Shown piece after piece: positions 15,719-18,373 of a DNA stretch of 45,723 nt (the stretch's first letter is position 1; the number at the start of each line of letters is the position of its first letter). The notes below the pieces were generated by a model. That model saw nothing but the letters and a program-made list of their open reading frames with translations. It made no database searches and had not been told where the DNA came from. Source of the DNA: Elusimicrobiota bacterium (GTDB lineage: Bacteria > Elusimicrobiota > Elusimicrobia > UBA1565 > UBA9628); the NCBI GenBank assembly GCA_016207605.1, contig JACQPJ010000015.1, positions 1-45,723 on the forward strand, read 5' to 3'. A program made the translations under genes and the position numbers.

Positions 15719-15740
15719 GGAATGGTTCATAACACCTAGT

Positions 15741-15774
15741 GTAGTGTCCTCTAAATAACTAGCCATTATCCCTT
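15741..15774 (+). repeat. Left terminal inverted repeat of the IS element
   Basis: GTAGTGTCC at 15741-15749 and TAGCCATTATCCCTT at 15760-15774 match the right end read on the opposite strand, with a 3-base length difference in the middle. Its inner edge runs into the transposase -35 box (TTGACA, 15773-15778). Confidence 0.7.
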
Positions 15775-15801
15775 GACAACAAGTAATCAATCTGTTACGC
15801 T
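15773..15801 (+). promoter_or_regulatory. Transposase promoter: TTGACA, 17-bp spacer, TACGCT
   Basis: A perfect -35 (15773-15778) and a -10-like TACGCT (15796-15801) at the optimal 17-base spacing. Six bases separate the -10 from the transposase ATG at 15808, so the mRNA should be leaderless or nearly so. The -35 overlaps the end of the terminal repeat. Confidence 0.75.
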
Positions 15802-15807
15802 CTAGAT

Positions 15808-16647
15808 ATGAGATATACGATCAAAGACTTTAAGAAGGACTTCCCGGACGATAAGGCTTGCCTCACGCACATCTTCAAGAACAGGTACCCAAAAGGCCTG
15901 GAATGCCCTAAGTGCCACAAGGAGGACTTTTACCCCGTAGAGCATCGCCGCGCCTATGCCTGCTCCTGCGGCCATCATATCTACCCTACCGAAGGCACTA
16001 TCTTTCACAAGAGCCCAACTTCCCTTGTTTCCTGGTTTCATGCCATCTTTCTCATAAGCCAGTCCAAGAATGGGGTTTCGGCTAAGGAAATCGAGCGGCA
16101 GCTCGGCGTTACTTATAAATGCGCGTGGAGAATCGCTAAACAAATCCGTTCCCTCATGAAGCAGGGGAACGATCCGCTTAGCGGCACAGTAGAAGCCGAC
16201 GAAACCTATATCGGCGGTAAGGCTGGATACGGGCGCGAGAATAAGACCGCCGTATTCGGGGCTGTTGAACGTCAAGGCCGCATTAAAGTTAAAGCTGTCA
16301 AAGACGTTAAAACTGACACTCTTTTGCCCGAAATGAAGGGGATGATTAAAGAGGGCTCTACGGTCATTACTGACGGGATGCTGAGCTATCAGAAAGTCCC
16401 GCAACTTGGCTTTGAGCATAAGACCATTAATCACTCAAAGGGCGTGTATGTCATTGGTAATATCCACACGAATTCCATTGACGCTTTTTGGGGCCATTTT
16501 AAACGTTCCGTGGCCGGGACTTATTGCTCGGTTTCACCGAAGCACCTACAGAAGTACCTTGATGAGTTCGCTTTCCGCTACGATCATCGGGACGATTTGA
16601 CGCCTTTGCCCGTGACGATGTTTTCACGGGTTGGGATGCGCGCTTAA
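15808..16647 (+). CDS. IS1595-family (ISXO2-like) transposase
   Basis: A 279-residue protein. The N-terminal zinc ribbon has C33-P-K-C36 and C52-S-C54. A helix-turn-helix-like segment follows (SAKEIERQLGVTYKCAWRIAK). The catalytic domain has D131 in EADETYIGG, D189 in VITDGMLSY, and the N222-x-x-D225 block HTNSIDAFWGHFKR, where family members usually have N-x-x-E. The frame is full length for the family and intact, so the element may still be active. Composition is far more AT-rich than the host genes on either side. Confidence 0.93.
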   Translation: MRYTIKDFKKDFPDDKACLTHIFKNRYPKGLECPKCHKEDFYPVEHRRAYACSCGHHIYPTEGTIFHKSPTSLVSWFHAIFLISQSKNGVSAKEIERQLGVTYKCAWRIAKQIRSLMKQGNDPLSGTVEADETYIGGKAGYGRENKTAVFGAVERQGRIKVKAVKDVKTDTLLPEMKGMIKEGSTVITDGMLSYQKVPQLGFEHKTINHSKGVYVIGNIHTNSIDAFWGHFKRSVAGTYCSVSPKHLQKYLDEFAFRYDHRDDLTPLPVTMFSRVGMRA

Positions 16648-16683
16648 GCAAATCAAAAAAGTTTTTACGCCCAGTGATATCCA

Positions 16684-16968
16684 TTAGGTTGCAGGCTTAT
16701 GTGCCTTATTCTGGATCAAGTACCAACTATCTGCAGTAATCCATCCCTGCCGATTTTCTCCTATCTCAACAATAATGAATTTCCCAGTTCCATTTTGGGC
16801 GTGTATTTTTTCAAAAAGCGTTTCCGCAGAAGATTCCGAAACAATATAGAAAGCATTCGTCATGTCATATCGCCAATGCTTAATTTCAGGAATAGCATTA
16901 AGATATTTTTTTACAGATTCCATTGTTCCCAAACCGTCACTAAATGATAAGAGGTAAATTTTTTTCAT
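16684..16968 (-). CDS. Passenger gene: 94-residue protein, possible Cas2/SinR-like ferredoxin fold
   Basis: A small protein starting MKKIYLLSFSDGLGT, with HWRYDMTNAFYIVSESSAE, a helix, then KFIIVEIGENRQGW and ITADSWYLIQNK. The beta-alpha-beta-beta-alpha-beta order, the short N-terminal strand with YLLSFS and the W-x-x-D-x-x-x-x-FYIVS segment resemble small Cas2-like or SinR-annotated proteins with a ferredoxin fold. This is a by-eye similarity, not a demonstrated match. It overlaps the stop of the membrane-protein gene by 4 bases, so the two form a pair translated together inside the IS element. AT-rich like the rest of the element. Confidence 0.65.
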   Translation of the reverse strand: MKKIYLLSFSDGLGTMESVKKYLNAIPEIKHWRYDMTNAFYIVSESSAETLFEKIHAQNGTGKFIIVEIGENRQGWITADSWYLIQNKAHKPAT

Positions 16969-17414
16969 ACCGGTGGTGGATCATTTGGTGGCGGCAAAAT
17001 TGGTTGGATTCGATCAGAAATAGAAGGCATCGAATTAGGCGTTATAAGTGTTGGCCCATTCCCACCACTATTTTCAGCCAATTCCATTCTAAGTTTATTT
17101 TCAATGTGCTTTTCTGATCTACAAAAATCAGGGTCTTGCAGACTTTTTATAAAAAAATGGATTACAAATACGCCCATTAAGATATAAAGAGAATTAAGTG
17201 CAAATCCAATTGCGCCCGGAATGTCGCGGAAGAACATGAGAATCAGAAAAGCCAAAACAACATAAATCAGTACAAAAATAAGGTATGGACGGTATCCGCT
17301 GGATCGCTCCGTTTTTGTAAACCAGTTTTGTGTGTATTGAATCCAATCCATTGGGTTTAATGGGTTGCCCATCAAGAAAAATATAACATTAATCAAAGAG
17401 TGGATTTTGCTCAT
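16965..17414 (-). CDS. Passenger gene: small two-span membrane protein of unknown function
   Basis: A 149-residue protein. The N-terminal 45 residues include a hydrophobic stretch (LINVIFFLMG) and a polar loop. Two clear membrane spans follow (LIFVLIYVVLAFLILMFF and FALNSLYILMGVFVIHFF), then a polar tail ending in a Pro-rich run (PILPPPNDPPP). I do not recognise a family. It is the first gene of the minus-strand passenger pair and its start lies 13 bases inside the right terminal repeat. AAGGAT lies directly before the ATG. Confidence 0.65.
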   Translation of the reverse strand: MSKIHSLINVIFFLMGNPLNPMDWIQYTQNWFTKTERSSGYRPYLIFVLIYVVLAFLILMFFRDIPGAIGFALNSLYILMGVFVIHFFIKSLQDPDFCRSEKHIENKLRMELAENSGGNGPTLITPNSMPSISDRIQPILPPPNDPPPV

Positions 17415-17426
17415 ATCCTTGTCTCT

Positions 17427-17458
17427 AAGGGATAGTGGCTAAATAACTGGACAACTAC
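17427..17458 (-). repeat. Right terminal inverted repeat of the IS element
   Basis: Read inward it is GTAGTTGTCC, seven bases, then TAGCCACTATCCCTT, matching the left end apart from the middle spacer and one base. The 16-bp TTTGATTGCAACCCCT repeat begins immediately outside. Confidence 0.7.
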
Positions 17459-17459
17459 T

Positions 17460-17475
17460 TTTGATTGCAACCCCT
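17460..17475. repeat. 16-bp repeat TTTGATTGCAACCCCT, copy 2
   Basis: An exact match to 102-117. It lies between the IS right end and the stop codon (17474) of the minus-strand secreted-protein gene, so it belongs to the 3' end of that gene, as copy 1 does for the GT2 gene. Confidence 0.6.
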
Positions 17476-18373
17476 AAGGCAGTAGTCCACTTTTCAGCGC
17501 GCCGCGAAGCAGGGCCTCTACGGCCGCGGCCCGGGCGAGGGATCGTTCGAACCACCTTTGCAGTTCCCCATCTTGGAGAAGGGGCGCGTACTGCCTGCGG
17601 AACTCCGCCGTTCTGGCTGCGTCCTTCTCCAGTTTTGTCAGAGCGTTGATCAGCGACTCTTTGCTGCCATCTGCCGCCCAATCAAACACCCGCCGCTCGT
17701 CCCGAGACTTTTTTCCCAAGACCCACAGGACCTTCGTCTCTGGCGCGTCTTGGGCGTCCGGCGCGTATCGTTCGGCGGCATGGAGGGTCCTATCGATCTG
17801 CTGGTCGAGAGCATCGATCTCCATTTCGGCGTCCCCTCGGGCTGCTTCGATCTGCTCGGCGCTCGACGCCGGCTCGGGTCGGGCTGGGGCGTCCGTCAAG
17901 AAGCCGGCGATGTTGCGGGTCCTGCGCCGGCGCGCCGGGGCGAGCGCCCGATGGGCGGTCCCGAGCGCCCAATCCATCCCCGCGCTTTGCGCGGACGGGA
18001 GATGGAGCCCCGCGGCGGGTTTCAGCGCGTAGCGCAGCTCCCGCAGTTTTGTGGAGACCAAGGCCGGAGGCAGGCGCGACAGCGCCTCGTAGGACGCCGG
18101 CCGGGCCCAGGCGGCGGGGGCCGCCTCCAGCGTCCGCGCAGGCGTGGCCAGAAGCGTCGCGCGCAAGCGGCGGGGGCTCGCCTCCGCTGTTGTGAGGAAA
18201 TCGGAGACGGGTTCCCACCACTCGCCTGGAACCAGGAGAAAAGCCCCGTTGAAGCTCCGCTCGAACAAGCCGGGCTGGAACTCGACGCGGGGAATCTCCG
18301 CGGCCCGCGGCGCGGGCGCCGCGGCTAGGCAGAGGCAGGCGAGGAGCCCAGCCTTCGATTGCTTTCGTTTCAT
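17474..18373 (-). CDS. Secreted protein of unknown function
   Basis: A 299-residue protein with a signal peptide (KRKQSKAGLLACLCLAAA, then APAPRAAE as a likely cleavage region). The mature part is Ala/Arg-rich and mostly helical; a middle stretch SSAEQIEAARGDAEMEIDALDQQIDR looks like a coiled coil. No catalytic motif or known domain is recognisable. It shares with the secreted HEASH protein a TAGG(T)CTTTTGG-CCCA motif upstream, which hints at common control. The IS element sits directly downstream of its stop. Confidence 0.7.
   Translation of the reverse strand: MKRKQSKAGLLACLCLAAAPAPRAAEIPRVEFQPGLFERSFNGAFLLVPGEWWEPVSDFLTTAEASPRRLRATLLATPARTLEAAPAAWARPASYEALSRLPPALVSTKLRELRYALKPAAGLHLPSAQSAGMDWALGTAHRALAPARRRRTRNIAGFLTDAPARPEPASSAEQIEAARGDAEMEIDALDQQIDRTLHAAERYAPDAQDAPETKVLWVLGKKSRDERRVFDWAADGSKESLINALTKLEKDAARTAEFRRQYAPLLQDGELQRWFERSLARAAAVEALLRGALKSGLLP

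Follow-up and report, generated by a model that had tools for sequence, protein, structure and literature searches.

An intact IS1595-family element of an Elusimicrobiota genome carries a recurring pair of small genes for a membrane protein and a predicted ferredoxin-like protein

A short block of low GC content in the contig of an Elusimicrobiota bacterium raises the question of whether it is a self-contained mobile unit, where this unit begins and ends, and what the two small genes that accompany its transposase might do for it. The window, that is the whole stretch of 45,723 nucleotides that was analysed, contains one intact IS1595-family element of 1,680 bp at 15761-17440 on the plus strand, with terminal inverted repeats (TIRs) and a perfect 8-bp target-site duplication (TSD). 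Its ends were set by a joint search for inverted termini together with flanking 8-bp duplications, which returned a single answer: the left TIR AGCCATTATCCCTTGACA at 15761-15778 on the plus strand, the right TIR AGCCACTATCCCTTAGAG (minus-strand reading) at 17423-17440, and the duplication AAATAACT at 15753-15760 and again at 17441-17448. The inverted termini AGCCAYTATCCCTT match at 18 of 24 terminal positions, and TIRs and a TSD as good as the real ones never arose when the same search was run on 300 shuffled versions of the flanks. Terminal inverted repeats and an 8-bp direct target duplication are features of the IS1595 family; indeed, the same joint search also recovered perfect 8-bp duplications around IS1595 relatives, both plasmid-borne ones and ones from further genomes of the phylum, and the inner terminal motif TATCCC(C)TTGA is common to the window element and several IS1595 relatives. 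An earlier, sequence-only reading of this DNA had described an intact transposase and terminal repeats that enclose two genes between 15741 and 17458. The enclosure stands and these ends do not, being ruled out by the 8-bp duplication around 15761-17440.

What had appeared as outer repeats at 15741 and 17458 belongs to the target rather than to the element, because the flanks, once the element is removed in silico, join as CCTAGTGTAGTGTCCTCTAAATAACTGGACA, which is identical at 29 of 31 positions to the terminal sequence of a repeat family of G112, a genome from the same class. The left part of this target, running from CCTAGTGTAGTGTCC to TAAATAACT, occupies 15735-15760 on the plus strand, and the target sequence resumes to the right of the element at 17449-17453 (GGACA). 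The terminal sequence CCTAGTGTAGTGTCCCGTAAATAACTGGACA lies at 20 sites in G112, where in several places two inverted copies stand about 200 bp apart in a MITE-like arrangement; in the genome of the window it occurs only once, split by the IS1595 insertion (15735-15760 and 17441-17453). Base composition likewise supports an insertion, since the transposase (50% GC) and the cargo genes (36-38%) both depart from the flanks (68-70%), the whole block having 44% GC in a contig of 69%. The element is present as a single copy in its genome, of which the assembly is 75% complete at 1.4 Mb. The empty site could not be read, as the flanking 299-aa gene on the minus strand (17474-18373), which has no Pfam match, is without a relative in the remaining 18 genomes of the genus. 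The structure of the element and its cargo as described here can nevertheless be regarded as virtually certain.

The transposase gene (15808-16647, plus strand) is a full open reading frame of 279 aa, so that its description as an intact IS1595-type transposase was borne out. Its product matches the Pfam domains DDE_Tnp_IS1595 (PF12762, 1.2e-40) and zinc ribbon (PF12760, 7.6e-9), both above cut-off, as well as the NCBIfam model transpos_IS1595 (NF033547, 1.1e-58) with 198.6 bits against a cut-off of 75. It is about 45% identical to its nearest plasmid relatives, and in the phylogeny it groups with transposases from Sulfitobacter and Geminicoccaceae plasmids (support 97/99). The hexamer TTGACA within the left TIR (15773-15778), picked by eye and not listed by the promoter scan, may serve as the -35 box of the transposase promoter.

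The two remaining genes lie on the minus strand, convergent to the transposase: gene 1 at 16965-17414, for a protein of 149 aa, and gene 2 at 16684-16968, for a protein of 94 aa. They share 4 bp, in agreement with their earlier description as co-translated, and the ATG of gene 1 is 26 bp inside the right element end. A two-gene operon between IS1595-type termini that are themselves flanked by an 8-bp duplication places the operon inside the mobile unit, and the presence of non-transposase genes between the ends is the mark of a transporter IS. The IS1595 family, as reportedly set out by Siguier, Gagnevin and Chandler in a 2009 paper that PMC12888890 cites, includes such "transporter IS" with passenger genes. 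Like the members of this family, the window element has the characteristic transposase domains, the 8-bp duplication, short imperfect inverted ends and passengers between them; it differs in its passenger pair, which is not described in any library searched.

Given that the GC content of the cargo is so different from that of the transposase, the two probably have different histories. This difference, along with the single copy in the genome, would also fit a pair of host genes trapped by chance between two independent IS1595 ends and functionless within the element. We consider such trapping highly improbable, because both reading frames are intact, the same pair in the same orientation lies in a second element (in genome G292), and the genomes of the phylum that were scanned are without the pair outside the loci described here, one of them (G262) having a lone small gene.

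Indeed, the same pair in the same gene order was found in six loci, namely the window, G292, G306, a plasmid of Acinetobacter, a contig of IMG/VR and a genome of Winogradskyella. The genes overlap by 4 bp in five of the six and abut in the sixth, and two small, co-directional and overlapping genes are a layout of the toxin-antitoxin type. In G292, the pair (144 and 93 aa) is located inside an IS1595 element with a perfect 8-bp TSD, TTTTTATT, and 27-bp inverted repeats (85%), and its arrangement is that of the window: the transposase, then the convergent genes for 93 and 144 aa with a 4-bp overlap. In G306, the pair (147 and 95 aa) follows an IS1595 transposase on the same strand; the TIR/TSD search found neither termini nor a duplication in this AT-rich sequence, and hence the pair is called adjacent to the transposase and not enclosed. 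Looking for the same pair in other IS1595 elements, as had been proposed from the sequence, was therefore fruitful in one element with its own TIRs and 8-bp TSD and beside one further transposase.

The pair was likewise to be sought in defence islands, and the contexts of the other three loci are mobile or defence ones. On plasmid pXBB1-6 of Acinetobacter johnsonii, the genes for 133 and 96 aa, with a 4-bp overlap, come just after an Abi_2 gene (Pfam 4e-10; PADLOC PD-T4-5 1e-14). On the provirus-like IMG/VR contig, a tyrosine integrase immediately precedes the genes for 124 and 95 aa, and the Winogradskyella vincentii genes for 128 and 91 aa stand right in front of two further genes, one for a DpnII-like restriction enzyme and one for a cytosine DNA methylase. 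These neighbours speak for an anti-phage system of the abortive-infection kind, in which the small protein, with its Cas2 fold, would sense a phage nucleic acid or nucleotide and the membrane protein would depolarise the cell. Taken in this specific form the proposal appears rather unlikely, for the free-standing loci are just three, each neighbourhood is known from one genome, and in PADLOC the pair matches no family and no known anti-phage system beyond noise.

The small protein of the window is 45-47% identical to those of Acinetobacter and Winogradskyella and 21-23% identical to those of G292 and G306. A profile search recovered the small gene in 4 of 338 genomes of the phylum, and in three of these four it stands beside an IS1595 transposase, whereas IS1595 transposases at this depth are present in 24 of 340 genomes. 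As the window had been selected beforehand, the independent associations amount to two of the remaining three small-gene genomes; by our own estimate, the chance that a randomly placed small gene lies no more than 2 kb from one lone IS1595 copy in a 2-Mb genome is about 0.2%. The transposase of G292 groups with transposases other than that of the window (support 100/100), and a tree with the transposases of the window, G292 and G306 in a single clade is rejected (p-AU 1e-58, with long branches elsewhere in the tree). Since these three transposases form no clade, the module was captured, or the cargo exchanged, more than once. That the two genes form a conserved two-gene module is as good as certain, and mobile elements of several unrelated kinds carry the pair, which is tied to IS1595 more than once. 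The module is rare, being present in a single genome among 399 of the family to which the Winogradskyella genome belongs, and no relatives were found in E. coli genomes and phages; few members were reached with one genome scan and small collections. A second virus contig (L057), picked up by a pattern, was a chance match in a phage structural region. In G262, the lone relative of the small protein (88 aa; L063, 3251-3517) adjoins an ORF of 87 aa that is HTH-like, and neither a membrane partner nor an IS1595 transposase was detected there.

The recurrent tie to IS1595 transposases of different clades might also be explained if the pair aided transposition itself, for example in the choice of target or in the control of the transposase; the Cas2-domain cargo of another IS1595 element would be in keeping with this. 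It is a very unlikely explanation, however, given that many IS1595 elements with perfect TSDs are without cargo and that the pair is without any transposase in three loci.

The 94-aa protein had been suspected, from its strand pattern, to adopt a ferredoxin-like fold and to be Cas2- or SinR-like, and structure prediction supports the former. The AF2 model (pLDDT 80.5, pTM 0.71) has a ferredoxin-like fold; at a threshold of E <= 0.001, Foldseek matched this model to no PDB entry, and at E 0.004-0.05 it listed many ferredoxin-like folds with a probability near 1. In the top list, the best mutual TM-scores were those of BPSL1038 (7vxr; 0.64/0.69) and of Atx1-type domains (0.56/0.70), and many other ferredoxin-fold families score like the Cas2-type structures. 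BPSL1038 is described as a Cas2/VapD-like DNase with the motif D11(X20)SST, a nuclease whose physiological role is undetermined (PMC10491678). The 94-aa protein resembles it in predicted fold, in size and in an aspartate at residue 11, in the column of the putatively catalytic Asp at the end of strand 1. It differs in that strands 2 and 3 are not joined by an SST turn, M-T/P-N standing there instead, in that it has no sequence match to BPSL1038, and in that a gene for a membrane protein accompanies it at the observed loci. In an alignment of 10 relatives, the Asp column holds D in six (the small proteins of the window, Acinetobacter, the virus contig, G292, Citrobacter and Serratia), the remaining four having N (two), E and G (one each), and among these sequences only the SinR-like plasmid proteins have the ST turn. 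With the Asp kept in 6 of 10 and the SST turn absent, a nuclease does not follow from the resemblance in fold. Sequence profiles of the small protein had no match among solved Cas2 structures, 7vxr included, and the best profile match, AfTRAX at E 0.009, was judged to be due to chance.

Sequence comparison points toward plasmid proteins and phage families. The small protein of G292 finds unannotated small proteins on plasmids of Citrobacter and Serratia, which show the pattern YDLN...STW, and also matches an annotated hypothetical protein of a Vibrio plasmid (E 2e-5 to 7e-3), all of which we take to be "SinR-like". In PHROG, the 94-aa protein matches phrog_32103 (3.2e-17) and phrog_1090 (8e-4), the former being matched also by the small proteins of Acinetobacter and the virus contig. 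We consider it likely that, among ferredoxin-like proteins, the 94-aa protein is of the Cas2/SinR-like kind and not of some other; at the level of the predicted model the fold resemblance stands, and membership in the BPSL1038 subfamily is not claimed.

The membrane protein shows the two hydrophobic spans that had been read from the sequence, at residues 44-62 and 71-89 by hydropathy. Its match to phrog_27377 is at E 0.002, and other partner proteins match this family at 1e-20 to 1e-7, the Winogradskyella partner not having been scanned. A membrane segment SALNPILWLC followed by DRDKLQSExYQ is strongly conserved in the partners of Acinetobacter, IMG/VR and Winogradskyella; the corresponding segment reads DPDRLQTEKYQ in G306 and DPDFCRSEKH in the window. 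Its predicted model is poor (pLDDT 57), and a fold search with it was uninformative. The PHROG families 27377 and 32103, to which no function is assigned, and 1090 are thus matched by the cargo proteins, and the library assigns no pairing. Neither Pfam nor PADLOC, for the pair members scanned, nor NCBIfam, for the pair of the window, has a convincing model for either protein. Hence the module is without a name and new to these three collections at that coverage, passengers of IS1595 as such being already known.

Two-gene systems of the SLOG-SLATT and CBASS types combine a small cytoplasmic sensor with a two-span membrane effector. The pair shares with them the general layout alone; no sequence relation was found, and none of the searches identified the 94-aa protein as a SLOG protein or a nucleotidyltransferase. 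VapD-like toxins are considered the likely ancestors of Cas2. To our knowledge, the travel and the roles of Cas2-like small proteins outside CRISPR are poorly known.

Other IS1595 elements carry cargo of comparable kinds. A Geminicoccaceae element (CP122394.1; L046, 2378-4904; perfect 8-bp TSD GCACGCAA) encodes a Cas2-domain, VapD-like protein of 107 aa (PADLOC Cas2, 8e-11) and one of 198 aa; a profile comparison of our small protein with this Cas2-domain cargo gave no alignment, so that close kinship of the two Cas2-fold cargos is not claimed. A Roseomonas element (NZ_CP061092.1; L048, 2900-5503; perfect 8-bp TSD TATCTTTA) encodes a 266-aa, a PIN-domain and a 61-aa protein. Elements of Sulfitobacter (NZ_CP083567.1; L045, 2402-4071) and Megaera (AP017966.1; L055, 2890-4554), each with a perfect 8-bp TSD, encode proteins of 196 and 213 aa, respectively, with a hydrophobic span. 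In G295 (L075, 746-3895), the transposase, which is sister to that of G292, has a gene for a 747-aa N6 DNA methylase-like protein immediately behind its stop codon, and weak terminal repeats with no clear duplication surround the two genes. Further IS1595 elements with duplications are about 1.0 kb long and consist of the transposase only. No open-access paper was found that describes these cargos.

Such cargo bears on a further reading, that of a toxin-antitoxin addiction module which keeps the element in its host, either as a membrane toxin with a Cas2-fold partner or with a Cas2/VapD-like RNase as the toxin. The Cas2/VapD-type gene in an IS1595 element of the same transposase clade and the PIN-domain cargo argue for it, as does a pair that is small, bicistronic, overlapping, mobile and low in GC. 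Nevertheless, the order and sizes of the partners are unlike any named system and the putative catalytic Asp of Cas2/VapD is not kept in all relatives, and we hold addiction in this narrow sense to be possible and on the doubtful side, much as we do the anti-phage system.

The neighbours of the free-standing loci and the other IS1595 cargo make toxin-antitoxin or abortive defence the most probable role of the pair, one we put forward tentatively as a serious candidate. We favour, with some reserve, an overall explanation in which an intact IS1595 transporter IS carries a paired module that works in a toxin-antitoxin or abortive-infection manner. The transposase would move the whole 1.68-kb unit via its termini, and the two cargo proteins would work together, a joint function being likely from their co-translation and near-fixed order in six loci. 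The small Cas2/SinR-like protein, as a dimer, may act on nucleic acid by binding or cleavage, or it may sense a nucleotide; the membrane protein may be the effector or the anchor through its conserved, putatively cytoplasmic segment D-x-D-x-L-Q-S-E-x-Y-Q; acting in either manner, the module would benefit its carrier. Much more speculative, and in our opinion rather doubtful, is the broader proposal that IS1595-family elements serve generally as carriers of minimal conflict modules with a Cas2-fold protein at their core. The present pair would then have been acquired by different IS1595 lineages as well as by plasmids and prophages, and would be a membrane-acting defence or addiction system triggered by a Cas2-fold sensor.

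A 1.7-kb IS with a Cas2-like gene and a dedicated membrane partner, to which come another element built in the same way and homologues of the pair on plasmids and on a virus contig, is a minimal and testable system. Moreover, the ends of IS1595 elements delimit small passenger modules, with Cas2-domain, PIN and probably DNA-methylase genes, so that scanning between such ends offers a cheap route to candidate defence or toxin-antitoxin modules. As to how the cargo of the window is expressed, an automatic scan listed no promoter ahead of the cargo genes, and the first ATG has no more than 26 bp of element sequence ahead of it, so that their transcription probably depends in part on read-through from the neighbouring gene of the same strand at 17474-18373. 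In G292 it is thrS that runs in the same direction as the cargo, like this neighbour in the window.
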